NCBI GenBank assembly: GCA_017615595.1
Contig: JAFZZT010000045.1
Span: forward strand, 1-41,611
Reading direction: 5' to 3'
Length of the DNA: 41,611 nt
Source: Bacteroidales bacterium
GTDB lineage: Bacteria; Bacteroidota; Bacteroidia; Bacteroidales; WCHB1-69
In this document: piece after piece, positions 3,357-37,553 of the stretch
Layout of the letters: each line of letters opens with the position of its first letter
How positions within the stretch are numbered: the first letter of the stretch is position 1
Notes under the pieces: model-generated
Databases searched by the model: none
Told to the model about the DNA's origin: nothing
Seen by the model: only the letters and a program-made list of their open reading frames with translations
Position numbers and translations under genes: made by a program

Positions 3357-4046
3357 ATGAAAATGGACTTCAACTTCACGAAAGGCGAATGGGCGGGGGC
3401 GATGGCACTGGCAGCCCTGATATTGAGCAGCTATCTCATTTACTATCTCTATGATGGAAAGAAAAAGACGCCCTACGACTTCTCCGCTTTCGAGGCGGAG
3501 GTGGCGGCTTTTGAGGCGGAGCAGCAGCGCCTGGCGGACTCGGCAGATGCTGCGCGGGCACAGGGTCGGACTTACCCCTACCGCTCCTATGCGCACGGGG
3601 ACACCACACCCCGCAACAGGAAATACGAGAAGAAGCCCCTGTACGAGATCGTCCGCCTCGACCTCAACCGTTGCGACACCGATGCCATCAAGACCGTGCC
3701 GCAGTTCGGCAGCAAACGCGCCGCCAAGCTGGTGGAGTATCGCGACAAGCTGGGTGGATTCTACAGCTTCGAGCAACTGAAGGAGGTCTATGTGCTGCAG
3801 AGCATCGACACAGCCCTGCTGCACAAATACTTCTTCCTCCGCGCAGGAGACGTGCGCAAAATCAACATCAACACCGCCACCTACAAAGAGCTGATACAGC
3901 ACCCTTACTTCGACGCCTACCTCACCAAGACCATCCTCGCCTACCGCGAAAAACACGGAGCCATCCGGTCCTTGGCCGAACTGCAGGAGATCACCCACGC
4001 CTACCCCGAACTGATGGAACGGCTGAAACACTATGTGGTGTTTTGA
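3357..4046 (+). CDS. Membrane-anchored helix-hairpin-helix (ComEA-like) protein
   Basis: 229 residues. An N-terminal hydrophobic segment (about residues 12-31, AGAMALAALILSSYLIYY) should anchor it in the inner membrane. A charged Ala/Glu-rich stretch (about 40-70) may be helical. Two helix-hairpin-helix units follow: LDLNRCDTDAIKTVPQFGSKRA with LVEYRDKLGGF, and ININTATYKELIQHPYF with ILAYREKHGAI. The pattern 'LN..d...L..ip.ig...A..Iv.YR...G.f' is that of ComEA-type DNA-binding proteins, used in DNA uptake in other bacteria. A competence role here is inference, since no other com gene is in the window. The ATG at 3363 is an alternative start two codons in. It stands alone between its own promoter and the heptamer array at 4061. 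Confidence 0.85.
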   Translation: MKMDFNFTKGEWAGAMALAALILSSYLIYYLYDGKKKTPYDFSAFEAEVAAFEAEQQRLADSADAARAQGRTYPYRSYAHGDTTPRNRKYEKKPLYEIVRLDLNRCDTDAIKTVPQFGSKRAAKLVEYRDKLGGFYSFEQLKEVYVLQSIDTALLHKYFFLRAGDVRKININTATYKELIQHPYFDAYLTKTILAYREKHGAIRSLAELQEITHAYPELMERLKHYVVF

Positions 4047-4060
4047 AAAGAAACGTCGCA

Positions 4061-4094
4061 CAACTGACAACTGACAACTGATAACTGATAACTA
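4061..4094. repeat. Heptamer tandem array (CAACTGA/TAACTGA, nearly 5 units)
   Basis: Three CAACTGA units, one TAACTGA and a partial TAACTA run in perfect 7-nt phase. The array starts 14 nt after the stop codon of the helix-hairpin-helix gene and ends just before the promoter at 4103. Confidence 0.85.
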
Positions 4095-4102
4095 AAAAAA
4101 TG

Positions 4103-4110
4103 TATCTTTG
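4103..4110 (+). promoter_or_regulatory. Bacteroidetes -7 promoter element (TATCTTTG)
   Basis: A perfect TATCTTTG directly follows the heptamer array. It sets the start of the PHP gene, because an in-frame TTG at 4108 lies inside this box and cannot be used. Confidence 0.75.
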
Positions 4111-4134
4111 CCGCCCGATAAAACCGCAAAGATC

Positions 4135-4890
4135 GTGAACCTCTTCAAGGCAGACCTCCATACGCACACGCTCTTCTCCCCCTGCGGGGATCTGGAGATG
4201 ACACCCGACAATATCATCGATATTGCCAAACAGCGCGGTCTGGACGTCATCGCCATCACAGACCATAACGCCACACGACACTGCCGGCTGGCGGAGTACT
4301 ACTCCCACAACCGCGACATCTTCGTCATCTTCGGCGCAGAGGTCACCACCAAGGAGGAGGCCCACTGCTTAGGCTACTTCCCCGACTACGAGACACTCGA
4401 CGCCTTCCAAGCCTACCTGGACGAACATCTCCCCGACATTCCCAACGACCCCGACTTCTTCGGCGACCAGGTGCAGATTGACGAAGAGATGAACATCGTC
4501 TATGAGGAGCCCCGTCTGCTCACCTCCGCCATCAACCAGACCGTCAACCAGATAGCCGACAAGGTACACTCCTTGGGCGGTCTCTTCGTGCCCGCGCACA
4601 TCGACAAGCAGAAGAACAGCCTCATCGGGCAACTCGGCTTCATTCCCTTCGACCTGGACTACGATGCCGTGGAGCTCTCCGACAAAGGCAACAAAGAAGA
4701 GATTTTAAAAATTCACAAATATCTGAAAAACAAAACTTTCACCCGCAGCTCAGACGCGCACTTCCCCGACCGCATCGCCTACTCGCCCTGCTGGCTCCGC
4801 ATGGAGACCCGCAGCTTCGAAGAGTTCCGCATGGCCCTGCACCACGAAAACGGGAGGGAGGTGGTTTTGGAGTTAGGAGTTAACAGTTAG
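4135..4890 (+). CDS. PHP-domain metal-dependent phosphoesterase
   Basis: 251 residues from a GTG start at 4135, the first usable start after the promoter box. PHP metal-site motifs appear in order: DLHTHT (7-12), TDHN (42-45), GAEVTTKEEAH, VPAHID and SSDAHFPD. This is the compact PHP class related to TrpH/YciV-type phosphoesterases; the substrate cannot be read from sequence. It lies upstream of a DRTGG protein and a HATPase protein. In many fermentative anaerobes homologues of these three sit beside [FeFe]-hydrogenase/NuoEF-like genes, but none of those is present here. The last four codons before the stop, and the stop itself, lie inside a heptamer repeat array, so the tail residues GVNS are repeat-derived and probably dispensable. 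Confidence 0.88.
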   Translation: MNLFKADLHTHTLFSPCGDLEMTPDNIIDIAKQRGLDVIAITDHNATRHCRLAEYYSHNRDIFVIFGAEVTTKEEAHCLGYFPDYETLDAFQAYLDEHLPDIPNDPDFFGDQVQIDEEMNIVYEEPRLLTSAINQTVNQIADKVHSLGGLFVPAHIDKQKNSLIGQLGFIPFDLDYDAVELSDKGNKEEILKIHKYLKNKTFTRSSDAHFPDRIAYSPCWLRMETRSFEEFRMALHHENGREVVLELGVNS

Positions 4891-4903
4891 GAGTTAGAAG
4901 TTA
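4869..4903. repeat. Heptamer tandem array (GGAGTTA, 5 units) containing the PHP stop codon
   Basis: GGAGTTA, GGAGTTA, ACAGTTA, GGAGTTA and GAAGTTA in 7-nt phase. The PHP gene's stop (TAG, 4888-4890) spans the junction of the third and fourth units. Confidence 0.85.
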
Positions 4904-4920
4904 ACACTTTGTTTGCAACG

Positions 4921-4960
4921 AACAAATAAACGAATAAACAAATCAACAAATAAACAACAA
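4921..4960. repeat. Octamer tandem array (AACAAATA, 5 units) in the leader of the DRTGG gene
   Basis: AACAAATA, AACGAATA, AACAAATC, AACAAATA and AACAACAA in 8-nt phase, ending 5 nt before the ATG at 4966. It forms the whole ribosome-binding region, which is A-rich and has no Shine-Dalgarno sequence. Confidence 0.85.
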
Positions 4961-4965
4961 CAAAC

Positions 4966-5301
4966 ATGACCGTAAAAGACATTATCGAGAAAATGAACCT
5001 GAAGGTTTATTCTGGTGAGAACAATTTGGACACCGTCATCAAGGGCGGATATGTGTCCGACCTTTTGAGCGACGTGATGGGCTTTGCCCAGGAGGGCCAC
5101 GCGTGGGTCACCCTGCAGACGCACAAGAACGTCATCGCCATCGCCTCCCTGAAGGAGCTCGCCTGCGTCATCCTCGTCAAGGGCAACGAACCTGATGATG
5201 ACATGTTGGAGCAGGCCAAAGAGGAGGACATTCCTGTCTTGGGCACCACGGAGCAGACCTTTGAGGTGGCCGGACAACTGTACATGATGCTAAATGCGTA
5301 A
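4966..5301 (+). CDS. DRTGG-domain protein
   Basis: 111 residues, the size of a single stand-alone DRTGG domain as found near HPr-kinase-like and CBS proteins. It begins VKDIIEKMNLKV. The core has GGYVSDLLSDVMGFA and AWVTLQTHKNVIAIASLKELACVILV with alternating strands and helices. No kinase P-loop is present, so it is not an HPr kinase despite common database names. A partner-binding or ligand-sensing role is inferred from the domain type. It lies 3 nt upstream of the HATPase gene and 75 nt downstream of the PHP gene. No promoter box is visible, so transcription probably comes from 4103. Confidence 0.8.
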   Translation: MTVKDIIEKMNLKVYSGENNLDTVIKGGYVSDLLSDVMGFAQEGHAWVTLQTHKNVIAIASLKELACVILVKGNEPDDDMLEQAKEEDIPVLGTTEQTFEVAGQLYMMLNA

Positions 5302-5304
5302 GTC

Positions 5305-5829
5305 ATGAAAGACCTCTCCATGCACATAATGGACATCCTCCAGAACTCCACGCGCGCCAAGGCCACGGAGATCACCCTGGAGGTGTTGGAAGACCACGCC
5401 GCCGACACGCTGACGCTGATCTTCAAGGACAACGGCTGCGGCATGTCGCCAGAGATGGTCGAGAAGGTCATCAACCCCTTCTTCACCACCCGCAAGGTCG
5501 GCCTGGGACTGCCCCTGCTGAAGCAGAACACCGAGATGACCGGCGGCTCCCTCGACATCCAGTCGGAGGTGGGCGTGGGCACGGTGGTCACCGCCATCTT
5601 CGGACTCACCCACATCGACCGTCCGCCTATGGGCGACCTCGCCGGCACACTCGTGCTGACCATCTCCGCCTATCCGGACATCCGCTTCCTCTTCCACTAC
5701 AAACGCGATGAAGAGGTGGACTACCTCCTCGACACCAACGAGATCTACGAGGCCCTGGACGGCATGTCCATCAACTCCCCGGAGATCATCGAGTACCTCA
5801 AAGAGATGGTGCAGGAGAATATACAATGA
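5305..5829 (+). CDS. Histidine-kinase-like ATPase (HATPase_c) protein without a phosphoacceptor domain
   Basis: 174 residues. All GHKL ATP-binding boxes are present: N-box HIMDILQNSTRAKA (7-20), G1 DNGCGM (42-47), F-box NPFFTTR (57-63) and G2 GLGLP (66-70). There is no upstream dimerisation/His-phosphotransfer region, so this is not a complete sensor kinase. It resembles small anti-sigma-factor-like ATPases. The C-terminal ~65 residues (from about 110) match no domain I recognise. It follows the DRTGG gene by 3 nt, which suggests translational coupling and a shared function. Its stop codon falls in the first unit of the octamer array that begins at 5826. Confidence 0.85.
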   Translation: MKDLSMHIMDILQNSTRAKATEITLEVLEDHAADTLTLIFKDNGCGMSPEMVEKVINPFFTTRKVGLGLPLLKQNTEMTGGSLDIQSEVGVGTVVTAIFGLTHIDRPPMGDLAGTLVLTISAYPDIRFLFHYKRDEEVDYLLDTNEIYEALDGMSINSPEIIEYLKEMVQENIQ

Positions 5830-7920: not shown

Positions 7921-8004
7921 AACTTCTAACTTCTAACTTCTAACTCCAAACTTCTAACTGACAACTGATCACTGTTCACTCTTCATTGTTCACTCTTCAC
8001 TTAT
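7921..8004. repeat. Heptamer tandem array, 12 units in strict 7-nt phase
   Basis: The units drift from AACTTCT (x3) through AACTCCA, AACTTCT, AACTGAC, AACTGAT, CACTGTT, CACTCTT, CATTGTT and CACTCTT to CACTTAT. Most keep a CT core at positions 3-4. The array ends about 20 bp before the -7 box of the protease promoter. Confidence 0.9.
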
Positions 8005-8024
8005 TGTTATTTCCCAATTTTTTA

Positions 8025-8032
8025 TATCTTTG
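8025..8032 (+). promoter_or_regulatory. Bacteroidetes promoter of the 8106-17628 gene run (TATCTTTG)
   Basis: TATCTTTG with a possible -33 TTG at 8004-8006, about 18 nt upstream. I find no other TAnnTTTG box close to a start codon before 17628, so this may drive the whole run. The leader to the ATG at 8106 is about 65-70 nt. Confidence 0.65.
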
Positions 8033-8105
8033 CGGCTTCAATCTCAACCGCCTTCATGACGGCGAGATGGTGTATTGTATGATCGAAACTTCAAATGAAA
8101 AAAAC

Positions 8106-10247
8106 ATGAAAAAAACATCCTTTACGCTAATACTTATCTGCGTATGCCTTTTCACTGGCATGCGAGTCATGGCCCAATCCGTCACCCCATCGCAGGCCGA
8201 CCAAGTGTGCCAACGATTCCTGATGGACAAACAAAAGATGAAAGCGGGCGACACGCCCACCTTCCAGCTGGCAGAGGTCATGCTGAACCAGAGCGGCGAG
8301 GGATATGTCTACCGTTACAACCTCAACGACGAGGGATTTGTCCTGGTTTCCGCTTCCACGACCACCCCTCCCGTGCTGGCCTACTCTTTCGAAGGGCCCT
8401 TTGAGATGATTCCGCCGGTGCGCGACCTTCTCTGGCTCTACGAACAGGAGATCGCCTTTGCCGAGAGCCAGCAGCTCAAGGCGCTGCCCAAGGCTGCCGC
8501 CAACTGGGACCGCTATCTGGCCGCCGAGTACGCTCCCCCTGCCGAGAAAGGCACGAAGGTGGACCCCTTGCTGACCTCTTTCTGGAACCAGAACAAATAC
8601 TACAACACCTACTGCCCGTGGGATGTCAACGCCGGCGCCTACTATGACTACCGCGTACCCAACGGCTGTGTCGCACTCGCTTCCTCCCAGATCATCTACT
8701 ATCACCGCTGGCCCGAACATGGAACCGGCATGATCTCCTACATCCCCAGCGGCTACGGCATCCAGACCGTCCATTACAACAACGAGCACTACAACTACGA
8801 GGCCATGTGCAACATGCCTACCACCTATGTCAACCAGATCTCTCGTCTGGCATATCACTTCGGTGTGGCTATCCGCATGAACTACAACTATGACGGTTCC
8901 GGCGCACAAACCGATGACGCCAAGGAGCGCCTGCGCCAGACCTTCTTGTACGACCCGAGCATCACCACCTATTACCGTGGCAACTATATCGACACGCTGG
9001 TAGAGGAGTACATCATCGCCCTGAAAGACCAGCTGACACGCCGTCTGCCCGTCTATTACTCCGGATGCACCCAGCAACTCAACTCCTGCCACGCCTATGT
9101 GGTGGACGGTTATGACGAAGACGACCTTTTCCACATCAACTACGGATGGGGCGGCGCCTCCAACGGCAACTACGCCATCGACAACTTCGTGGCCGGCTAC
9201 TCCCACTACGACTACAGCGCCGAGGCTCTTTTCAACATCTACCCGTCCAAGGCTTATCCCGCCCCTCAATGCCAGGGGCACAAACGCGTGACCGCCTCCC
9301 TGGGCACCATCACCGACGGCTCGCATACCGCCATGCCCTACAAAGCCAACCCCGACTGTTCCTGGATGATCGCCGCGCCAGGCGCCTTTGCCTACAACAT
9401 CCAATTCGACCGCATGGACCTCAACCCAGGTGTGGACTATGTGACCATCTACAACGGCCCCACCACAGCCTCCGGCATCGCCGGCACCTTCACGGGACAA
9501 GAGCTGCCTACCACACCGATAGGAGTCAACGCCGACAGTGTGCTCGTCACCTTCACCAGCAGCAGCACGGTCGATACCAACACCCAGTACTACGGTTTCA
9601 TGTTCAGCTATACCTCCACCCTCCCCACCCGCTCCTGCAACAACGTCACCAACCTTACCGACTGGACCACCACCATCTCAGACGGCACGGACGAGGGCAC
9701 CAACTATACACCGCAGACCTCCTGCCAGTTCAACATCAACCACCAGTATGTGGGCGGCTATGCCTTCAACTTTGAGAAATTCGACCTCGGCGTGGGCGAC
9801 TTTGTGGACATCTACAATAACGGCACCAACCCCGCCACCTTCTACAAACGCTTTGACCTCAACAACATGCCGAATGGCGACTACTCCGTGCCCTTCCAGA
9901 AGATGCGCGTGCAGTTCGTCTCCGACAACTACGACCAGCGAGACGGATTCAGATTCCGTTACTTCACCCTTACAGGCATTGAGGAGAACAGCGGCATTGA
10001 AGACCTCTCCGTATATCCGAACCCTGCCACCGACTACCTCTTCGTCAAGTTCAACGTGGCAGAGCCCACCCTGATCACCTGCAAGCTGATGGATGCTACC
10101 GGCAAAGTCCTCTCCATGGAAAACATGGATGCTTTCAGCGGAGAAAACACCCACTCCATCCAGACCTCCTCGCTGGCGACTGGTTTCTACCTGTTGGAGA
10201 TCGACACTCCGACTGGCAAGACCATCCGCAAAGTGATGGTACAATAA
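8106..10247 (+). CDS. Secreted C10-family (streptopain-like) cysteine protease with two CUB-like domains and T9SS sorting domain
   Basis: 713 residues from the ATG at 8106. Longer in-frame starts lie in the leader and would mask the signal peptide MKKTSFTLILICVCLF. Domains in order: signal (1-24); a Spi-type propeptide (about 25-100, with FVLVSAS and PVLAYSFEG); C10 catalytic domain (about 150-380) with the nucleophile Cys188 in NGCVALASSQIIYYH, the catalytic His329 in CHAYVVDGY, and FHINYGWGG; two CUB-like modules (about 389-507 and 508-620, with VDYVTIYNG and GDFVDIYNN); and a type A T9SS sorting domain (about 625-713, VYPNPATDYL to KVMVQ). It should be exported through T9SS, activated by loss of the propeptide, and digest external protein. 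The ProX gene follows after 8 nt. Confidence 0.93.
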   Translation: MKKTSFTLILICVCLFTGMRVMAQSVTPSQADQVCQRFLMDKQKMKAGDTPTFQLAEVMLNQSGEGYVYRYNLNDEGFVLVSASTTTPPVLAYSFEGPFEMIPPVRDLLWLYEQEIAFAESQQLKALPKAAANWDRYLAAEYAPPAEKGTKVDPLLTSFWNQNKYYNTYCPWDVNAGAYYDYRVPNGCVALASSQIIYYHRWPEHGTGMISYIPSGYGIQTVHYNNEHYNYEAMCNMPTTYVNQISRLAYHFGVAIRMNYNYDGSGAQTDDAKERLRQTFLYDPSITTYYRGNYIDTLVEEYIIALKDQLTRRLPVYYSGCTQQLNSCHAYVVDGYDEDDLFHINYGWGGASNGNYAIDNFVAGYSHYDYSAEALFNIYPSKAYPAPQCQGHKRVTASLGTITDGSHTAMPYKANPDCSWMIAAPGAFAYNIQFDRMDLNPGVDYVTIYNGPTTASGIAGTFTGQELPTTPIGVNADSVLVTFTSSSTVDTNTQYYGFMFSYTSTLPTRSCNNVTNLTDWTTTISDGTDEGTNYTPQTSCQFNINHQYVGGYAFNFEKFDLGVGDFVDIYNNGTNPATFYKRFDLNNMPNGDYSVPFQKMRVQFVSDNYDQRDGFRFRYFTLTGIEENSGIEDLSVYPNPATDYLFVKFNVAEPTLITCKLMDATGKVLSMENMDAFSGENTHSIQTSSLATGFYLLEIDTPTGKTIRKVMVQ

Positions 10248-11952: not shown

Positions 11953-12783
11953 ATGGGTGAACATAAAGATCATAACGGCAGCTTCGACTTCATCAGGGAT
12001 GTGCTCTCGCAAATGCAGCCCATCTCCCTGGAGGAGATGAATGCTGTCAAGCTGATGAACCGTACGGACACCAAATATCTCACCAACAGGCAGACGCTGC
12101 AAGAGATGGCCCGGCATTGGGAGCCGCTTTTTTATGTCCAGGACATTAACGGTCTGCGGCAGGCGCATTACACCACCCTGTACTTCGACACGCCAGACGC
12201 CCTCACCTACACCATCCATCACAACCAGCGCCTGCACCGGCAGAAGATCCGCCAGCGCCACTATCTGGATACCGGCACCCGCTTTCTGGAGGTCAAGAAC
12301 AAGATCAACACCGGACGCACCAAGAAGAAGCGCATCGAAATCCCCGAAAGCGCGTGGGGCGACCTCTACCGCACCCCCGAGACGACGGAGTTCCTCCGCC
12401 AAAAGGTCTGGATCACCGAGCAGCCCCTGGCACCGCGACTGCAGAACTACTTCCAGCGCGTCACCCTGGTCAACAAGAACCGCACCGAGCGCATCACCAT
12501 CGACAGCGGCATCCGCTTCCACAACCACCTGTCACAGCAGGATGCCGACGTCTCAGACCTCGTCATCGTGGAGGTCAAGCAGGATGGCAACCAGCGTTCC
12601 GACTTCAAAGACCTGCTCCTCAACGCCCGTGTGCCCCAACGCGGCCTCAGCAAATACTGTCTCGGCATGCTCCTCACTGACGAGCAGATCAAATACAACC
12701 GTTTCAAAGACAAAATCCGCTATGTCGGCAAACTGATCGGCCAACCCCTTCAGATTTGCAGCGAAAAGAATAATCATCAATAA
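11953..12783 (+). CDS. VTC-domain protein (polyphosphate-polymerase-like)
   Basis: 276 residues, no signal peptide. It shows the basic and acidic tunnel-lining motifs of the VTC/CYTH-like triphosphate tunnel fold: NRTDTKY (36-42), LYFDTPD (76-82), RQKIRQRHY (96-104), FLEVKNK (111-117), KKKRIE (124-129) and IVEVKQDG near 204-211. In yeast Vtc4 this domain makes polyphosphate from ATP. Bacterial members are annotated by homology, and their product is less certain. The next gene encodes DUF4956, the usual partner of bacterial VTC genes, 12 nt downstream. That linkage suggests the polymerase docks to a membrane protein. DUF2490 and MscS genes follow in the same run. Confidence 0.92.
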   Translation: MGEHKDHNGSFDFIRDVLSQMQPISLEEMNAVKLMNRTDTKYLTNRQTLQEMARHWEPLFYVQDINGLRQAHYTTLYFDTPDALTYTIHHNQRLHRQKIRQRHYLDTGTRFLEVKNKINTGRTKKKRIEIPESAWGDLYRTPETTEFLRQKVWITEQPLAPRLQNYFQRVTLVNKNRTERITIDSGIRFHNHLSQQDADVSDLVIVEVKQDGNQRSDFKDLLLNARVPQRGLSKYCLGMLLTDEQIKYNRFKDKIRYVGKLIGQPLQICSEKNNHQ

Positions 12784-12795
12784 AACAACAATACT

Positions 12796-13533
12796 ATGTT
12801 TCAAGCAGATTTCCCTGATTATGACCCTGAAATAGCCCGACAGTTCGGCGTGAGCGAGATGGATGGCAGCCAGCTCTTCGGCATCCCCTGGTTCGATGGA
12901 CCATCCCTGTGGCAGCTACTCTTCCGCTTTGCCATCAACCTCATCGTTTGCTGGATCATCATCGGACTCTTCTACTATCGGAAAAGCCAGCGCAAAGACT
13001 ATTACTTCACCTTCATGCTCTTCAGCATCACCATCTTCTTCATGATCTTCTTGATGGACAATGTGAAAGTGCAGATTGGCTTTGCCTTGGGCCTCTTCGC
13101 CATCTTCGGCATGATCCGATACCGAACCGAGACCATCCCCATCCGGGAGATGACCTACCTCTTCGTCACCATCGGCATCTCCGTCATCAACGGCTTGGCC
13201 ATGACCACCAGCTATGCGGAACTCTTCTTCACCAACATCTTCGTGGTGCTGGCCGTATGGTTCTTCGAGTTCATCCAAGGCCGCAAGCAACGTCTAGAAT
13301 CCAAGATTATCCTGTATGAGAAGATCGACTTGATCAAGGTGGGTCGCGAGGAAGAGCTCAAGGCCGACCTCGTGGAACGCACGGGCCTCGATGTCGTCAA
13401 CGTGGAGGTGGGCCACATCAACTTCCTCAAAGACACCGCTTACATCAAGGTCTATTACAGACCCTCTTCGCCGGAGATCAACACCATCAACCATCTCACC
13501 AAGGTGAAATCCGACAAATACTTTGACGCATGA
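12796..13533 (+). CDS. DUF4956 inner-membrane protein
   Basis: 245 residues. After a soluble 35-residue start come four or five membrane segments: FAINLIVCWIIIGLFYY, FTFMLFSITIFFMIFLM, FALGLFAIFGMI, TYLFVTIGISVINGLAM and FFTNIFVVLAVWFFEF. A cytoplasmic tail of about 90 residues follows (KIDLIKVGREEELKADL ... INFLKDTAYIKVYY), where the conserved charged part of the family lies. DUF4956 has no proven biochemical role. Its genes are regularly beside VTC-domain genes, and here the spacing is 12 nt. It overlaps the next gene by 4 nt (ATGA at 13530), which indicates translational coupling with DUF2490. Confidence 0.92.
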   Translation: MFQADFPDYDPEIARQFGVSEMDGSQLFGIPWFDGPSLWQLLFRFAINLIVCWIIIGLFYYRKSQRKDYYFTFMLFSITIFFMIFLMDNVKVQIGFALGLFAIFGMIRYRTETIPIREMTYLFVTIGISVINGLAMTTSYAELFFTNIFVVLAVWFFEFIQGRKQRLESKIILYEKIDLIKVGREEELKADLVERTGLDVVNVEVGHINFLKDTAYIKVYYRPSSPEINTINHLTKVKSDKYFDA

Positions 13534-14207
13534 GCCTGAAAAAGACACTGCTATTCCTTTGCTGCGTGGCATTATCCGTCACCAGTCTCCGTGCCCAGTC
13601 GTTCGAGACCGGGGGCCTGATCGGGGTCGAATATGACCAGAAGATATTGAAAGGCTGGCATTTCAACGCGGAGACGCAGGTGCGTTTCGACCACAACTTC
13701 ACCCACTACGACCGGTGGAAAATCTCTGTCGGCACCGACTACACCTTTTGGAAAAAGCGCATCAAGATCGGGGCCACCTACAGTTTCATGAACTACCAGG
13801 ACAACAAAGGCTTCTTTGACTGGCGCCATCGCATCACGGGCTCGCTCACCTTCAGTCAGAAGATCGGCATCGCCAAGCTCAGCTACCGCGCCGCCTTCCA
13901 GAGCACCTTCCGGGACGAGAAGCGGGGAAGTTACAAGTTCAACCCCAAGACCTACATGCGCAACCGTCTGCAGTGCACCTTCAGCATCCCCGAGAAGCCC
14001 GTCAAGCTATATATCTCCGAAGAGTTCTGGTGGAGACTCTACCACCCGGGCAAGAACATCATAGACGAACTGCGCACCACGGTCGGTGTCAAATACACCA
14101 TCCGGAAACATCACACCCTGGACTTCTTCCTGCGTCTGTCGGACGAGGTGCAGGTCAAAAAGCCCGATCACAAACTCATGATAGGCATAACATACGAAAT
14201 TGACTAA
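13530..14207 (+). CDS. DUF2490 family outer-membrane beta-barrel-like protein
   Basis: 225 residues, signal peptide MSLKKTLLFLCCVALSVTSLRAQ. The mature part is a run of amphipathic strands with aromatic ends (GWHFNAETQVRFDHNF, RWKISVGTDYTFW, IKIGATYSFM, GIAKLSYRAAFQSTF, VKLYISEEFWWRLY, LRTTVGVKYTI, HTLDFFLRLSDEVQV). This is the pattern of a small beta-barrel and of DUF2490. Its start overlaps the DUF4956 stop by 4 nt, so one cytoplasmic, one inner-membrane and one outer-membrane product are made in order from the same message. Function unknown; a spanning complex is an inference from gene order alone. Confidence 0.88.
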   Translation: MSLKKTLLFLCCVALSVTSLRAQSFETGGLIGVEYDQKILKGWHFNAETQVRFDHNFTHYDRWKISVGTDYTFWKKRIKIGATYSFMNYQDNKGFFDWRHRITGSLTFSQKIGIAKLSYRAAFQSTFRDEKRGSYKFNPKTYMRNRLQCTFSIPEKPVKLYISEEFWWRLYHPGKNIIDELRTTVGVKYTIRKHHTLDFFLRLSDEVQVKKPDHKLMIGITYEID

Positions 14208-14217
14208 AAAACAGATT

Positions 14218-15036
14218 ATGGACCAACTGATTACTGCCGCCAAGACCTTCCTCACGGATGTGCTTTTCAAGAGCATCCCCAAGCTGATTCTCGCCCTCAT
14301 CATCCTCTATGTCGGCTTGAAACTCATCAAGTTGCTCAACAAGGTGATGAAGAAAGCCTACGAGAAGCATCAGGTGGACATTTCCCTGCAGCAGTTCCTG
14401 CAATCGCTGATCGACATAACCCTCAAGATATTGTTGATTTTGACGGTGATGAACATCATCGGCATCCAGATGACCTCCTTTGTGGCCATCATCGGTGCGG
14501 CGGGATTGGCGGTGGGCATGGCCTTGCAGGGCACCTTGCAGAACTTCGCCGGGGGTGTCATCATCCTGTTGCTCAAGCCTTTCAAGGTCGGAGACTACAT
14601 CGAGCAGGGCAACTATGCCGGCTCAGTGAAGAGCATCCAGATCTTCAACACCACCATCGTCACCTACGACAACCTGACCATTGTGGTGCCCAACACCGAG
14701 CTGGCCACCAAGTCGCTCACCAACTACACCGCCCTGCCCTCGCGGCGCGTCAAAGTCAATGTCGGCATCCGCTATGGCGAATCTGTCGAGAAGGCCCGCG
14801 AAGTCTTATTGCAGGTGGCCAACGCCAACCCCCACGTCACACAAGAGCCCAAAGTCCCCGCCGTCTATGTCAACGCCCTCGGCGAGAGTTCCATCGAGCT
14901 GATTCTCTTTGCCTGGACCACCCAGGAAAAATACTGGGATGCTCTTTTCTCCTTGAACCAAGAGGTGTATGAGGCCTTCCAAGCCAACGGCATCGAGATT
15001 CCGTTCAACCAGATGGACGTGCATATCACGCAATAG
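14218..15036 (+). CDS. Small-conductance mechanosensitive channel (MscS family)
   Basis: 272 residues from the ATG at 14218; an in-frame TTG at 14200 overlaps the previous gene and is less likely. Three membrane helices: SIPKLILALIILYVGLKLI, ITLKILLILTVMNIIG and the pore-lining FVAIIGAAGLAVGMALQGTL with the Gly/Ala-rich packing typical of MscS TM3. Then comes NFAGGVIILLLKPFKVGDYI, the family signature. The beta domain (VKSIQIFNTTIVTYDNLTIVVPN) and the C-terminal alpha/beta cage follow. It acts as a tension-gated safety valve in the inner membrane. It lies 10 nt after the DUF2490 gene and 27 nt before the VanX-like gene. Confidence 0.95.
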   Translation: MDQLITAAKTFLTDVLFKSIPKLILALIILYVGLKLIKLLNKVMKKAYEKHQVDISLQQFLQSLIDITLKILLILTVMNIIGIQMTSFVAIIGAAGLAVGMALQGTLQNFAGGVIILLLKPFKVGDYIEQGNYAGSVKSIQIFNTTIVTYDNLTIVVPNTELATKSLTNYTALPSRRVKVNVGIRYGESVEKAREVLLQVANANPHVTQEPKVPAVYVNALGESSIELILFAWTTQEKYWDALFSLNQEVYEAFQANGIEIPFNQMDVHITQ

Positions 15037-15063: not shown

Positions 15064-15849
15064 ATGAACAGATCTATCTTCCGATTGTCTCTCATCCTAT
15101 TATTCTTTTGCATCGCACTGATACCGGCCGCCATAGGCCAACAGGACAAGCAACACACATCGCAACTCTCCATTCCGGAGCGGGATGCAAGCCAGTTTGT
15201 CAACATCACCGATGTGGTGCCGGATGTAATACTGGAAATCCGGTACTACGGCACCTACAATTTTGTAGGTCAGCGCATTGACGGCTACCTGCAGCCCACG
15301 GCATTGATGACAAAGCGGGCGGCCGACAGTCTGAAGGCTGTCAGTGACGATGTGATGCGCATGGGCTATCGGCTGAAGATCTACGACGCCTACCGGCCGC
15401 AGATGGCCGTCGATCATTTCGTGCGCTGGGCCGCCGATGTGCCCGACACGATGATGCGGCAGTATTTCTATCCTGAGGTGGATAAGAGCCGGCTCTTTGA
15501 ACTGGAGTACATCATGGCCCGAAGCGGCCATACCCGCGGCTCCACGGTCGATCTCACCCTCTTCGACATGACCACCGAGAAGGAGGTCGATATGGGCGGC
15601 ACCTTCGACTGGTTCGGCGAGGAGAGTCATCCCGACTTCGGTGGCAACCCCGAGACGGGCATCTATAATGGGAAACCGTCCCCTGCGGGCCGGACCATCA
15701 CCGCCGAGCAATTCCGCAACCGCATGATCCTGCGGGAAGCCATGCTACGCCACGGATTCAAGCCCCTCGACAGCGAATGGTGGCACTTCACTTTGAAGGA
15801 CGAACCGTATCCGGAGACATACTTCGTGTTCCCGGTAAAAGAGCTCTAA
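15064..15849 (+). CDS. Exported D-alanyl-D-alanine dipeptidase (M15D, VanX-like)
   Basis: 261 residues with a signal peptide (MNRSIFRLSLILLFFCIALIPAAIGQ), so it acts in the periplasm or outside. All VanX landmarks are present: DAYRP with Arg111, the zinc motif SGHTRGSTVD with His156 and Asp163, and EWWHF with the general base Glu238 and zinc ligand His241. The family hydrolyses free D-Ala-D-Ala. There are no vanH/vanA/vanS/vanR genes nearby, so this is not a glycopeptide-resistance cassette; cell-wall peptide scavenging or turnover fits better. By hand alignment, residues from about 43 on are about 89% identical to the C-terminal domain of the next gene, 33 nt downstream. That implies a recent duplication or ongoing gene conversion. 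Confidence 0.94.
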   Translation: MNRSIFRLSLILLFFCIALIPAAIGQQDKQHTSQLSIPERDASQFVNITDVVPDVILEIRYYGTYNFVGQRIDGYLQPTALMTKRAADSLKAVSDDVMRMGYRLKIYDAYRPQMAVDHFVRWAADVPDTMMRQYFYPEVDKSRLFELEYIMARSGHTRGSTVDLTLFDMTTEKEVDMGGTFDWFGEESHPDFGGNPETGIYNGKPSPAGRTITAEQFRNRMILREAMLRHGFKPLDSEWWHFTLKDEPYPETYFVFPVKEL

Positions 15850-15882
15850 TAATCCCAGCAGAATTACGTAGAAAAAATACCG

Positions 15883-17628
15883 ATGAAAAAAGTCCAACAT
15901 AGTTTGTCCATCCTTTGGGCCACCGCCATACTATTACTTTTGGCGATGCAGCCAGTTGCCACACATGCACAGGGGCCAAATAAAACGCTCAAGTGTGTGG
16001 CTCCCGCCTACTTGAAGGCTGGTGACAAGGTGGCGCTCATCACCCCCTCTTACTACGGCAATGTAGAGACGACCCGCAAGGCTGCCAAGGTGCTGAAGAG
16101 CTGGGGATTCAAGCCCGTCATCGCTCCGAATGTAGGCAAGAAGCATTTGGACCTCTATGCCGGCACGTCGGAAGAGCGACTTGCCGACCTCCGCTGGGCG
16201 CTCAACGATCCCGACATCAAGGCGATCATCTGCATGCGCGGCGGTTACGGAAGCCTGCAGTTAGCAGACTTGCTGCCGTTGCAAGAGCTGACGGACTCGC
16301 CCAAATGGATAGTGGGTTTCAGTGATGCCACCACGCTATTGGGGATGGAGAACTGCGCTGGGGTGATGAGCATCCACGGCATCATGGGCAGCAACATCGC
16401 CTCCCGGGGCGGTGCCGACCTCTCCTGCACGCTATTGCGCGACCTGCTGAAAGGTCAGCAGCCCATCTATGAGCTGCCTGCCAACTTCATGAATATTCCA
16501 GGTCAAGCCACCGGCGTCCTCGTGGGCGGCAACTTGGCCACCTTCGCACCCCTGCTCAGCAGCCAGGCCGACCTCTTCAAGAACACCAACATCATCCTCT
16601 TCATAGAAGATGTGGATGAAACCTACCACAGTTTGGACCGTTTCTTCAACATGCTGAAGATTAGCGGTGCCCTGTCACGCTGCAAGGGCGTCATATTAGG
16701 CAGTTTCAAAGACTGCAAAGACGACCTCGGCTATGGCAATGTGGAAAACATGTTTCGCGAGTACATAGAGCCTTACCATATCCCGCTCCTCTGCGGATTC
16801 CCCGCCGGACATGTGCAGAAGAACCTGCCCTTAATCTTAGGGGCGCCTGTGACTCTCGACGTGCGGAGTGACGGCTCCACCCTTTCCTTCAGCATGCCCG
16901 GCTCGCACAAGACCGTGCAAACAGAAGGACTTCCCTTTCTTGAAAACCTGCCCGAGTTTAACAGCAGCTCCTTTGTGAACATCACCGACGTGATCCCGGA
17001 TGCCATCCTCGAGATCCGCTACTACAGCACCTACAACTTTGTGGGCGAGCGTATTGACGGCTACCAGCAGCCGACCGCATTGATGACGAAACGCGCCGCC
17101 GACAGCCTGAAGGCCGTCAGCGACGAGGTAATGCGCATGGGCTACCGGCTGAAGATCTACGACGCCTACCGGCCGCAGATGGCCGTCGATCACTTCGTAC
17201 GGTGGGCTGCCGACATCCCCGACACACTGATGAAGCGGTACTTCTACCCCGAAGTGGACAAGAGCCTGCTGTTAGTGCAGAACTACATAGCAGCGAAGAG
17301 CGGCCACACGCGCGGCTCCACCGTCGATCTCACCCTCTTCGATATGACCACCGAGAAAGAACTCGATATGGGCGGCACCTTCGACTGGTTCGGCGAGGAG
17401 AGCCATCCCGACTTCGGTGGCGACCCCGAAACGGGCATATACAACGGAAAACCGTCCCCGGCAGGCAGGACCATCACCGCCGAGCAGTTCCGCAACCGCA
17501 TGATCCTGCGGGCGGCCATGCTGCGCCACGGCTTCAAGCCCATCGATGAGGAGTGGTGGCACTTCACCCTGAAGGACGAGCCGTATCCGGAGACCTATTT
17601 TGAATTCCCCGTAAAAGAACTGAGATAA
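15883..17628 (+). CDS. Exported two-domain enzyme: LD-carboxypeptidase (S66) fused to D-Ala-D-Ala dipeptidase (M15D)
   Basis: 581 residues. Signal peptide MKKVQHSLSILWATAILLLL ending near HAQ (30). Domain 1 (about 37-340) is an S66 LD-carboxypeptidase: ALITPS, CMRGGYGS, nucleophile Ser147 in VGFSDATT, Glu242 in FIEDVDE and His310 in GFPAGH. The Glu-to-His spacing of 68 equals that of the Pseudomonas LdcA triad. Domain 2 (about 363-581) is VanX-like with Arg430, His475, Asp482, Glu557 and His560 all intact. S66 enzymes remove the terminal D-Ala from tetrapeptides; M15D enzymes split D-Ala-D-Ala. LdcA is normally cytoplasmic, so export of both activities in one chain is notable. The linker is short (about 340-362). 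Both catalytic sets look intact. Confidence 0.93.
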   Translation: MKKVQHSLSILWATAILLLLAMQPVATHAQGPNKTLKCVAPAYLKAGDKVALITPSYYGNVETTRKAAKVLKSWGFKPVIAPNVGKKHLDLYAGTSEERLADLRWALNDPDIKAIICMRGGYGSLQLADLLPLQELTDSPKWIVGFSDATTLLGMENCAGVMSIHGIMGSNIASRGGADLSCTLLRDLLKGQQPIYELPANFMNIPGQATGVLVGGNLATFAPLLSSQADLFKNTNIILFIEDVDETYHSLDRFFNMLKISGALSRCKGVILGSFKDCKDDLGYGNVENMFREYIEPYHIPLLCGFPAGHVQKNLPLILGAPVTLDVRSDGSTLSFSMPGSHKTVQTEGLPFLENLPEFNSSSFVNITDVIPDAILEIRYYSTYNFVGERIDGYQQPTALMTKRAADSLKAVSDEVMRMGYRLKIYDAYRPQMAVDHFVRWAADIPDTLMKRYFYPEVDKSLLLVQNYIAAKSGHTRGSTVDLTLFDMTTEKELDMGGTFDWFGEESHPDFGGDPETGIYNGKPSPAGRTITAEQFRNRMILRAAMLRHGFKPIDEEWWHFTLKDEPYPETYFEFPVKELR

Positions 17629-33262: not shown

Positions 33263-33335
33263 GCGCCACTTCGGATTTGGAATTCCGCTGGTTTTTTTGC
33301 ACTTTTGCACCTTTATTTTCTTTAAGAAGAGTTTT

Positions 33336-36300
33336 ATGAGTGCAGACTATATTTTTGAAACTTCGTGGGAGGTTTGCAACAAAGTTGGAGGCATATACAC
33401 TGTCCTTTCTTCCAAAGCATCCACGGCAGTACATCATTTCGGAGACCATTACATCTGTATCGGTCCAGACATTTCCAAAGAGTATCACGGAGATTTTGTT
33501 GAAGACCCGGCGCTTTTCCGCAACTGGCGGGAGATTGCGCAGCAAGAGGGTTTGAAGATCCGGATCGGCCGCTGGCAGATCTGCGGGTCGCCCATCGTCA
33601 TTTTGGTCAACTTCACTCCCTTTTTCGAGCACAAAAACGAGATCCTGACCACTTTCTGGATCAACCATAAGCTGGATTCCATCTCCGGTCAGTGGGACTA
33701 CATCGAGCCTGCGCTCTTCGGCTATGCCGCCGGCAAGGTCATCGAGAGTTTCTACAACTACTACTGCAACTCCATGGACAAGATTGTCGCCCACTTCCAC
33801 GAGTGGATGACGGGCACCGGCATTCTGCATTTGGAGACGGTGACCCCGCAGATCGCGACCGTCTTCACGACCCACGCCACCGTCTTGGGGCGCTGCATTG
33901 CCGGCAACGGACTGCCTCTGTACGAGAACATCCGCCAGTATCCGTCTTTGGAGACCGCCCAGCGTTTCGGCGTGCAGTCCAAGTTCTCGCTGGAGTCGCT
34001 CTCCGCGCAGGTGGCAGATGCCTACACTACCGTGAGTGACATCACCGACCAAGAGTGCGCGGCTTTCTTCCCCCACCCTGCCGATGTCATCACCATCAAT
34101 GGCTTTGAGAACGGCTTCGTGCCACAGGGAGACGAACGCGCCCAATGCCACGCCACTGCCCGCCAGCAGCTGCTCCACGTCGCCTCCTCCCTGATGCAGC
34201 AGCCGCTGCCAGACGACACCCTGCTCGTCATCAACAGCGGTCGCTACGAGTTCAAGAACAAGGGCATCGATGTCTTCATCCGCAGTCTGGCGCACTATGC
34301 GCAACAGAACCCCAGCCGGACGCTCTGCGCCTTCATCGCCGTCCCGGCAGGCCACAGCGGTATGCGCGAGGACCTGCTGCAACGCATGAACCAGCCCCTC
34401 GGCACCACGCCCATCCTGGACGACTTCTCCACCCATGTGCTGCACGACCCTTACAACGACCCCATCATCCGCGCATGCAAGCAGTACGGACTGCATAACG
34501 CGCCGGAGCAGAATGTCAAGGTGGTCTTCGTGCCCGTGTATCTAGACGGCCACGACGGCATCTTCAACCTTCCCTACTATGACTTCCTCGCAGGCTTCGA
34601 CCTCTCCGCATTCCCCTCTTACTACGAGCCCTGGGGTTACACGCCGCTGGAGAGCATCGCCTTCGGCATACCGACCATCACCACCTCGCTGGCAGGATTT
34701 GGCATGTGGGTCAACAGCAACTTCACCGACCAACGCAGCGTGACCGTGGTGCCCCGCACCGACCACAACGATGACGAGGTGGTCGAGCGCATCGCTCAGG
34801 CATTCCAATATTACAGCAGCTGCACCCCTGAGGAGAAAGCGCAACTCGACCAAAAAGCCGTTGAGATGTCGCAACAAGCACTCTGGAGCAGCCTTTACGA
34901 CAATTACCTGCAAGCTTACGACATCGCATTGTCAAAAAGCGACAGTCGTTACGATCAATATCAGACCAAAACCTCAAATATCAGCCAAATAGTGAAACAC
35001 ACGAACATTGAACGTCCTGAATGGAGACAGATATCCATCAAATCGCATCTTCCAAAGAGTCTGGAAAAACTAGAGCTGCTATCAGAGAACCTCTGGTGGA
35101 GCTGGAATTACGAAGCCCGGGAGCTTTTTGAGGAGATTGCGGGCAAAGAACTCTGGGAGCGTTGTCAGCAGAACCCTGTCTATCTGCTCCAGGTGTTGCC
35201 GTTTGAGCGGGTGGAGTCTTTCACCAAGAATCAGGAATTCCTGGCCAAGTTAGATCAGGTGTATGCCAAGTTCCGTCAATACATGGACACGCCGCGCACC
35301 CGTCCGGAGGAGAAGGTTGCCTACTTCAGCATGGAGTTCGGCATCAGCAACGAGCTGAAGATCTACTCCGGCGGTCTGGGCATGTTGGCTGGCGACTACC
35401 TCAAAGAGGCTTCCGACTCCAACGTCAACATGATTGGCATCGGCTTGCTTTACCGCTATGGTTATTTCACCCAACAGATCTCGAGTTACGGCGAGCAGGT
35501 CAACATGTATCCGCCTCAAAGTTTCTCCAAGTTGCCCATCAACCCGTTGAAGGACGAGGAGGGCAACTGGCTCACCATCTGTCTGTCATTGCCGGGGCGC
35601 AACCTGTACGCACGCATCTGGCGTGTGGATGTGGGTCGCATCCCGCTCTATCTGATGGACACCGACTTTGCCGATAACTGGAATGAAGACCGCGGGGTGA
35701 CTGCCACCCTTTATGGCGGCGACCAGGAGAATCGTCTCAAACAGGAGATGTTGCTGGGCATCGGCGGTCTGCGCATGCTCAGTCTGCTGGGCGAGCGCCC
35801 CACCCTCTTCCATCTCAACGAGGGTCATGCCGCCTTTGTGAATCTGGAGCGCATCTATCAAACGATGCAGGAGAAGCATGTCAACATGTCGGTAGCCATC
35901 GAACTCGTGCGCAGTTCCTCACTCTACACCACACACACGCCCGTGCCCGCCGGCCACGATGCTTTCCACGAGGATCTGATGCGCATCTACTTCGCCACCT
36001 ATCCCGACCGTTTCAACATCAGCTGGGAGACCTTCATGGGCTTCGGACGCCAGCGTGACGACTGCACCAACGACAAGTTCTCCATGAGCATCCTGGCCTG
36101 CCATTTCTCACAGGAGATCAATGGAGTGAGCCGCATTCACGGACGTGTCTCTCAGGACATGTTCGCCAATCTGTACGAAGGCCGTTTTGCCGCCGAGTCA
36201 CACATCGGCTACGTCACCAACGGCGTGCACTACCCCACCTGGGCGCACAAGCGTTGGCAGGCTCTGCACCGTCAGGTCTTCGGCGCCGCCTTCCTGCAAG

Positions 36301-37553
36301 ACCAGTCGAACCCCGCCTATTGGCAGAAGATCTACGAGGTGGCCGACCAAGACATCTGGGCTCTCAAGCAAGACCTCCGCGAGGAGATGATCTTGGCTGT
36401 CAAGGAGATGCTGGGAGAGCAGCTGCGCCGTCGCAACGAGTCCCCGGCCTTCATCAGCGCCACGCTGAAGCAGATACGCACTGACGTGCTCACCATCGGC
36501 TTCGCCCGCCGCTTCGCCACCTACAAGAGAGCGCACCTGCTGTTCACCAACGAAGAGCGGTTGCGTCAGATTCTCTGCAACGAGAAGATGCCCGTGCAGT
36601 TCATCTTCGCCGGCAAGGCACACCCGCACGACAAGGCCGGACAAGACATCATCACCAACATCGTCCGCCTGTCACACAAGCCCGAATTCGTGGGCAAGAT
36701 CATCTTCGTGGAGAACTATGATATGATATTGTCCAAGAAGCTCATCTCCGGCTGCGACCTGTGGCTGAACATGCCCACACGCCCGCTGGAGGCTTCCGGC
36801 ACGTCTGGTGAGAAAGCCGTCATGAACGGAGTGCTCAACTTCAGCGTTTTGGATGGCTGGTGGGCAGAGGGTTATGTCCCCGGCGCCGGATGGGCCATCA
36901 AGGAGGAGATCACCTACCGCGACAACCGCCTGCAAGACGAGTTGGACGCATCCACGCTATACAGTACCCTCGAAGAGGAGATCGCCCCTGCCTTCTACAA
37001 CCGCAACAAGGAGAACATCCCCGAGACCTGGGTCGCCATGATGAAGAAGTGCTTCGCCGAGATCTCCCCCATCTACACGATGAAACGACAACTCGACGAC
37101 TACTATAGCAAATTCTACAATAAACTGGAGAAACGCTATCTCGACATCAGCGCTGACGACTTGAAAAAGACTCGCCAGATCATCAAGTGGAAAGAGCACG
37201 TCATCACCGAATGGGACAACATCGTCTGCCGCTCCATCGAGAACTCCAACCATCCCAACAACACCTATTACATCGGCGACAAGTTCGGTCTTGAGATAGC
37301 CTTGGAATGCGGCTCCCTCACACCCAACGACCTCAAGGTGGAGCTGGTGCTCGTGGACAACGAGCATGAAGGTGAGATCAAACTCATAGCCAAATATCCT
37401 TTCCAGTTCATGCGTAAAGAGGGCGATAAGAGCTTCTTCAAATGCGAAGTGGACGCCAAGAAGGTCGGCAACTGGAGCTATGCCATCCGTGTGATCCCCG
37501 CCAACGAGCTCCTGCCGCACGATCTGGATTTCAATCTGGTGAAATGGTTCTAA
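33336..37553 (+). CDS. glgP: Glycogen synthase (GT3) - alpha-glucan phosphorylase (GT35) fusion
   Basis: 1405 residues from the ATG at 33336; the frame opens earlier at a TTG within a possible promoter. N-terminal half (about 1-545), yeast-type GT3 glycogen synthase: VCNKVGGIYTVLSSKA, FHEWMTGTGIL, FTTHATVLGR, NSGRYEFKNKGID and the donor-site YYEPWGYTPLESIAFG. C-terminal half (about 560-1405), GT35 phosphorylase of the DUF3417 type: ENLWWSWN, VAYFSMEFGI, GGLGMLAGDYLKEASD, FHLNEGHAAF and EASGTSGEKAVMNG with the pyridoxal-phosphate lysine near 1160. One chain thus carries both the elongating and the phosphorolytic enzyme. The fusion is known in Bacteroidales. ThiN's start overlaps its end by 10 nt. 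Confidence 0.95.
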   Translation: MSADYIFETSWEVCNKVGGIYTVLSSKASTAVHHFGDHYICIGPDISKEYHGDFVEDPALFRNWREIAQQEGLKIRIGRWQICGSPIVILVNFTPFFEHKNEILTTFWINHKLDSISGQWDYIEPALFGYAAGKVIESFYNYYCNSMDKIVAHFHEWMTGTGILHLETVTPQIATVFTTHATVLGRCIAGNGLPLYENIRQYPSLETAQRFGVQSKFSLESLSAQVADAYTTVSDITDQECAAFFPHPADVITINGFENGFVPQGDERAQCHATARQQLLHVASSLMQQPLPDDTLLVINSGRYEFKNKGIDVFIRSLAHYAQQNPSRTLCAFIAVPAGHSGMREDLLQRMNQPLGTTPILDDFSTHVLHDPYNDPIIRACKQYGLHNAPEQNVKVVFVPVYLDGHDGIFNLPYYDFLAGFDLSAFPSYYEPWGYTPLESIAFGIPTITTSLAGFGMWVNSNFTDQRSVTVVPRTDHNDDEVVERIAQAFQYYSSCTPEEKAQLDQKAVEMSQQALWSSLYDNYLQAYDIALSKSDSRYDQYQTKTSNISQIVKHTNIERPEWRQISIKSHLPKSLEKLELLSENLWWSWNYEARELFEEIAGKELWERCQQNPVYLLQVLPFERVESFTKNQEFLAKLDQVYAKFRQYMDTPRTRPEEKVAYFSMEFGISNELKIYSGGLGMLAGDYLKEASDSNVNMIGIGLLYRYGYFTQQISSYGEQVNMYPPQSFSKLPINPLKDEEGNWLTICLSLPGRNLYARIWRVDVGRIPLYLMDTDFADNWNEDRGVTATLYGGDQENRLKQEMLLGIGGLRMLSLLGERPTLFHLNEGHAAFVNLERIYQTMQEKHVNMSVAIELVRSSSLYTTHTPVPAGHDAFHEDLMRIYFATYPDRFNISWETFMGFGRQRDDCTNDKFSMSILACHFSQEINGVSRIHGRVSQDMFANLYEGRFAAESHIGYVTNGVHYPTWAHKRWQALHRQVFGAAFLQDQSNPAYWQKIYEVADQDIWALKQDLREEMILAVKEMLGEQLRRRNESPAFISATLKQIRTDVLTIGFARRFATYKRAHLLFTNEERLRQILCNEKMPVQFIFAGKAHPHDKAGQDIITNIVRLSHKPEFVGKIIFVENYDMILSKKLISGCDLWLNMPTRPLEASGTSGEKAVMNGVLNFSVLDGWWAEGYVPGAGWAIKEEITYRDNRLQDELDASTLYSTLEEEIAPAFYNRNKENIPETWVAMMKKCFAEISPIYTMKRQLDDYYSKFYNKLEKRYLDISADDLKKTRQIIKWKEHVITEWDNIVCRSIENSNHPNNTYYIGDKFGLEIALECGSLTPNDLKVELVLVDNEHEGEIKLIAKYPFQFMRKEGDKSFFKCEVDAKKVGNWSYAIRVIPANELLPHDLDFNLVKWF

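Follow-up and report, generated by a model that had tools for sequence, protein, structure and literature searches.

We describe a gene that joins, in a single chain, an S66 LD-carboxypeptidase domain and a VanX-like M15D dipeptidase domain behind one signal-peptide-like N-terminus. The gene lies in a stretch of 41,611 nucleotides from a Bacteroidales bacterium with relatives among rumen microbes, the whole of which we call the window, and its product carries, by alignment, two complete active sites that are conserved in relatives. We propose that the protein is an exported bifunctional hydrolase that scavenges D-alanine from peptidoglycan-derived peptides, a reading to which we assign a probability of about 0.5. 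Each of the two domains is known, as are an exported LdcA and a periplasmic D-Ala-D-Ala dipeptidase, whereas the pairing of S66 and M15D in one chain appears to be new. An earlier note on this DNA knew of no described enzyme with this pairing, and we likewise recognised none in the literature within our scope, outside which lie preprints and most subscription papers; no paper there was found to name both Pfam families together, and Table 3 of a 2019 review (PMC6403190) shows S66 with no further catalytic domain. If active, the protein would be a compact enzyme reclaiming D-alanine from cell-wall debris outside the cytoplasm, and the fused, split and PAP2-fused forms found in related genomes make up a natural series on whether physical linkage matters.

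Two active sites in one chain

The source assembly comprises 2.11 Mb in 53 contigs and is 92% complete. In the window, the fusion gene follows a lone M15D gene, co-directionally and 33 bp apart (Table 1). Both reading frames, and the seven catalytic residues that the earlier note had listed for the fusion (Ser147, Glu242, His310, His475, Asp482, Glu557 and His560), are where it had placed them, and its description of two catalytically intact domains behind one signal-peptide-like N-terminus agrees with our Pfam matches and residue check.

Table 1. Features of the fusion locus, in window coordinates
Feature	Position	Strand	Details
VTC, DUF4956 and DUF2490 genes, co-directional, upstream flank of the locus	11953..14207	+	
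MscS-type channel gene, directly upstream of the lone M15D gene	14200..15036	+	27 bp gap
Lone VanX-like M15D dipeptidase, 261 aa	15064..15849	+	Pfam; signal-peptide-like N-terminus by eye
Fusion, 581 aa: signal-peptide-like N-terminus, S66 LD-carboxypeptidase, M15D dipeptidase	15883..17628	+	
S66 domain as entered in trees, residues 36-350	15988..16932	+	Ser147, Glu242, His310
M15D domain as entered in trees, residues 357-581	16951..17625	+	His475, Asp482, His560, Glu557, Arg430, Ser473, Asp501

Pfam assigns Peptidase_S66 (residues 50-166, E 1.7e-30), S66C (210-325, 2.4e-28) and Peptidase_M15 (362-577, 9.3e-35) to the fusion, and Peptidase_M15 (4.7e-34) to the lone gene. All of these exceed their gathering scores, with 106.1 bits for PF02016 (cut-off 25), 99.6 for PF17676 (23.7) and, for M15, 120.6 in the fused and 118.4 in the lone domain (27). 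Among PDB sequences, VanX (1r44) is the best match of the M15D half and Pseudomonas aeruginosa LdcA that of the S66 half (1zrs, 98.3 bits in one stretch, against 80.6 bits in two stretches for MccF, 3sr3). Neither half reaches the NCBIfam equivalog cut-off of its characterised relative: VanX (NF033115) requires 320 bits, against 179.6 for the fused and 185 for the lone domain, and E. coli LdcA (PRK11253) requires 378, against 109.1 for the fusion. The P. aeruginosa enzyme (PA5198 structures) likewise combines Pfam S66 and S66C with Ser-Glu-His residues, but the fusion differs from LdcA in carrying a second catalytic domain.

The catalytic residues of both halves are nearly invariant. Among 31 S66 rows, Ser147 is present in 30, with one gap, and Glu242 and His310 in all; the M15D residues His475, Asp482, Glu557, His560, Ser473 and Asp501 are found in 53 of 53 rows. 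The columns aligned to VanX Tyr21, Tyr35, Arg71, Ser114, His116, Asp123, Asp142, Glu181 and His184, numbered by hand from the alignment to 1r44, are kept in the fusion and are invariant wherever present across the 53 M15D rows, with 52 or 53 letters in each column. His475, Asp482 and His560 align with the zinc ligands of VanX and Glu557 with the catalytic Glu, and the fusion, like VanX and PcgL of the M15D family, also keeps the residues aligned with the VanX base, Arg71, Ser114 and Asp142. It departs from VanX in 17 extra residues within the aligned stretch, around residues 510-530, and in the position of M15D behind S66.

The MscS gene adjoins the fusion in four relatives (G011, G017, G018 and G026), which also have the VTC/DUF4956/DUF2490 flank in common with the window. 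Among the relatives' loci compared, only the window has a lone M15D gene separating MscS from the fusion; in G012, a lone M15D follows DUF2490, and in the other relatives examined the fusion lies at different loci with unrelated genes alongside. Candidate promoters and terminators in the window showed no clear excess over shuffled sequence (7 against a mean of 4.8, sd 1.9, and 5 against 5.7, sd 2.4, respectively). Elsewhere in the window, 33297-37553 (+) holds one 1418-aa ORF with glycogen synthase, DUF3417 and carbohydrate phosphorylase domains, and 7986-10247 (+) encodes a C10 peptidase with a Spi-type inhibitor domain, a CUB domain and a Por secretion tail.

Distribution and descent of the fusion

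Within the family, 15 of 104 genomes carry the fusion, 13 of them among the 40 genomes of the window's genus and two among the four of another genus. It forms an uninterrupted single frame in 13 of the 15; in G037 it is divided between two overlapping frames, and in G011 it is cut by a contig end. The earlier note had allowed that the junction might be an assembly artefact at about 16900-16980, which is ruled out by the recurrence of the open frame in 13 genomes. In named genomes, the fusion is present at 8 of 37 loci (L034-L041; one cut by a contig end), all of them from MAGs titled Bacteroidales, and five of these titles name a ruminant stomach compartment.

Wider sampling returned little beyond this group. 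At E <= 1e-75, the fusion was found in the window and two genomes of its genus among 393 genomes of the order, and in the window alone among 395 of the phylum; in the class sample (395 genomes; cut-off for wider fusions E <= 1e-48) the window's fusion stood alone among the matches listed, which reach down to about E 4e-50. The three samples overlap partly, and more divergent fusions could escape the cut-offs used. One candidate, G888, has an open frame of 493 aa, but no M15D was seen by eye in its 451-aa ORF, and it was set aside. A single pattern scan of viral contigs, able to pick up only close relatives, gave no match in support of a viral origin.

By hand count, we did not see an exported S66 in 14 of the 40 genus genomes, several of which are incomplete. 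In the other 26, the two domains share one chain in 13 and lie in adjacent genes in 7, 20 in all, and M15D lies on another contig in the remaining 6. A Fisher test of co-occurrence gives p 0.004, but it uses hand counts and an identity threshold set after the rows had been seen, and we do not rely on it.

S66 trees were built from 30 rows and then from 34, the latter adding the unfused genus genes of G003, G016, G030 and G038; the 30-row tree lacks these four and the partial G007. G037 is represented by its 3' piece, and the second S66 copy of G039 was unused. The M15D tree has 52 rows, with G067b (135 residues) omitted and the short pieces of G011 (L101, L102) below the length filter. Loci were hand-picked, leaving out copies of identical contigs and several other M15D loci, lone or PAP2-fused, and L061 was excluded from alignment A2 because it was poorly aligned in A1.

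In the 34-row S66 tree, the 27 rows of the two genera with the fusion make up a clade with full support, and seven lone S66 rows lie outside it. The fused label changes three times, two of the changes being forced by starred branches, and the count is equal in the 30-row tree. Change counts alone cannot separate gain from loss. Support is weak (82/14) for the branches that place a fused row deepest; with the lone rows outside, the simplest account of the S66 tree would be one fusion in the ancestor of the two genera, lost twice. The window's S66 groups with G020 and G012 in the 30-row tree (91/87) but not in the 34-row tree. A single clade of all fused S66 rows is rejected (p-AU 8e-6 in one analysis, 2e-4 with 34 rows), and so is one of all 14 fused M15D rows (p-AU 0.001). 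On the M15D tree, the fused label changes seven times, at least four of them forced by starred branches. Thus, a single vertically inherited fusion fails for the M15D half, and either replacement by recombination or repeated fusion is needed.

The lone copy, split forms and exchanged tails

The earlier note counted 24 differences in 219 aligned residues between the window's two M15D domains, and proposed that a tandem duplication had occurred recently, with fusion coming either after or before it. The count is borne out (24 in 218 columns, 89.0% protein identity), but the recent duplication is not supported. At the DNA level, homology extends over 653 nt at 84.8% identity; in the comparison that gave dS the two copies are 84.1% identical, and their dS of 0.83 falls within the between-species range. 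Nearer relatives of the lone copy occur in other genomes: its protein is 97.2% identical to the lone gene product of G036 and 96.3% to that of G020, and it shares 95.9% with the M15D half of the G028 fusion. In the M15D tree of fused and standalone forms, which the earlier note had suggested building, the two window copies do not group; the lone copy groups with G036, G006 and G028 in a starred clade that excludes the window's fused copy. Forcing the two together costs 36.8 log-likelihood units, with a borderline AU p = 0.041. Because most comparisons are close to saturation at synonymous sites (the lone copy and G036 are 88.5% identical in DNA, with dS 0.74), dS excludes a recent event and cannot rank relatives.

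Nor does 89% identity imply recency, since M15D is a slow domain: between the window's fused copy and other fused copies of the genus, M15D is 80-90% identical and the S66 half 64-73%. The dN/dS of the window pair, about 0.08 (0.065/0.83), shows that M15D is under strong purifying selection. The alignments and trees therefore argue that the lone copy is not a fresh duplicate of the adjoining fused domain.

An unfused exported S66 occurs in 13 genus genomes. By hand count, 7 of these have M15D adjoining upstream, and in 6 of the 7 the S66 gene ends in an unrelated tail of about 130 aa that we call X; G009 lacks X, and the S66 frame of G007 is incomplete. Of the 6 with M15D on another contig, 4 have it as a PAP2 fusion (hand count). 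Several genomes that read as losers of the fusion carry a lone M15D immediately before an S66 gene whose tail is a different one, and the order in the window, M15D followed by S66-M15D, could represent an intermediate. Tail X has been exchanged between lineages, because its identities disagree with those of S66: between G012/G020 and G027/G032, X is 89-92% identical and S66 69-72%, whereas between G027 and G031, S66 is 91% identical and X 63%. X has matches in 13 of the 40 genus genomes and is also found as the C-terminal half of proteins that look like lipoproteins (L132, L134). Pfam gave no match to the tail in L019 at E 0.1 or in the X-bearing protein of L132 at 0.001. Bearers of X are L103, L104, L105, L107, L108, L109 and L125, besides L132 and L134.

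M15D is also found fused to PAP2-superfamily domains in many Bacteroidales (L042-L048, L050, L063, L077, L112-L116, L118 and L119), an assignment made by Pfam for L042 and L044 and by similarity for the remaining loci. The C-terminal M15D of such proteins (e.g. L042-L045, L050) is 71-76% identical to the window's fused M15D over 13 rows, but the N-terminal partner is a PAP2-superfamily domain rather than S66, which argues for M15D as a general exported module and not an obligate S66 partner. The genome's other M15D (C44) has an N-terminal membrane-like segment and adjoins an S46 peptidase gene, the two together occupying 3455-5644 and 5760-6653 of L146. M15D genes 58-65% identical to the query also occur in MAGs whose titles name Schwartzia (Firmicutes), Lentisphaerae, Verrucomicrobia, Clostridia and Erysipelotrichaceae (L053, L054, L055, L059 and L060), where they may reflect either gene transfer or binning error.

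Predicted export and possible function

Signal peptides were judged by eye and with a hydrophobicity script. The fused proteins have signal-like N-termini with no evident lipobox, and the fusion is thus apparently exported, either periplasmic or secreted. Seven lone S66 homologues fall outside the fusion clade, and by eye six of them carry a lipobox-like Cys. Acidic residues come after this Cys in L061, L074 and L076, a pattern similar to the surface-export signal published for Bacteroidetes, described as SDDDD in B. fragilis (PMC5080379). PAP2-fused M15D proteins have signal-like N-termini in those inspected (L042, L043, L044, L115 and L119); the script passed over most PAP2-fused loci. The earlier note was right that S66 LdcA is normally cytoplasmic, with a published exception, the LdcA of Neisseria gonorrhoeae, which is described as exported (PMC5646250), as we predict for the fusion.

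With export predicted from the N-terminus, we infer the substrates, compartment and scavenging purpose as follows. The S66 domain would remove the terminal D-Ala from muropeptide tetrapeptide stems as an LD-carboxypeptidase, and perhaps also act as an LD-endopeptidase, while the M15D domain would split free D-Ala-D-Ala; the material scavenged would be peptidoglycan fragments from turnover or from lysed neighbours. It can reasonably be inferred, as the earlier note did, that such a protein strips D-Ala from external or periplasmic muropeptides. Since both sites would release D-alanine, we propose that the protein is a nutrient scavenger, and there is a described parallel in PcgL, a periplasmic dipeptidase that allows growth on D-Ala-D-Ala (PMC3760250). 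In favour also count the hand-counted pairing of S66 and M15D, fused or adjoining, in 20 of 26 genus genomes, the signal-like N-termini of the PAP2-fused forms inspected, and the S46 peptidase gene beside the genome's other M15D. The window neighbours VTC, DUF4956 and MscS count against scavenging, being non-nutritional genes, as do the unrelated genes around the fusion in other relatives, the 6 genomes with M15D on a separate contig, and scores below the VanX and LdcA equivalog cut-offs. AmpG (TIGR00901) had no match in the genome, which is weak evidence because the assembly is 92% complete.

The two sites could instead work in series. S66 would cut a pentapeptide at the DAP/D-Ala bond and M15D would split the released D-Ala-D-Ala, yielding a tripeptide and two D-Ala. 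The S66 product would then be exactly the M15D substrate, the domains are fused or adjoining in most genus genomes with an exported S66 (the 20 of 26 above), and the exported neisserial LdcA is reported to have endopeptidase activity (PMC5646250). However, characterised S66 enzymes are described in the same source as hardly cutting UDP-MurNAc-pentapeptide, for which reason we rank this scheme below the scavenger reading, and M15D also occurs alone and fused to PAP2; we consider it unlikely. Equally doubtful is that periplasmic stem trimming and clearance of D-Ala-D-Ala edit the cell's own wall, controlling cross-linking or shape rather than feeding. Gonococcal periplasmic LdcA is described as altering sacculus stems (PMC5646250), and the MscS channel gene lies alongside in the window and four relatives, but the patchy presence of exported S66, not seen in 14 of 40 genus genomes (several incomplete), and the mostly lipoprotein-like lone homologues outside the clade, some with surface-export-like signals, speak against such a role.

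A more elaborate proposal holds both that the exported chain hands D-Ala-D-Ala from S66 to the VanX-like site, taking pentapeptide to tripeptide and two D-Ala, and that the C-terminal module (M15D, X or another tail) is an exchangeable cassette recombined between rumen-associated Bacteroidales species; as a joint claim this is improbable. Finally, detoxification of a peptide antibiotic by an MccF-like S66, or VanX-like glycopeptide resistance, is suggested by the membership of MccF in S66 and of VanX in M15D, but is very improbable, given that the VanX equivalog cut-off is missed, that the 17 window proteins scanned against Pfam include no vancomycin-type gene set, and that the S66 half lies nearer to LdcA (E 3.6e-27) than to MccF (8.2e-22).
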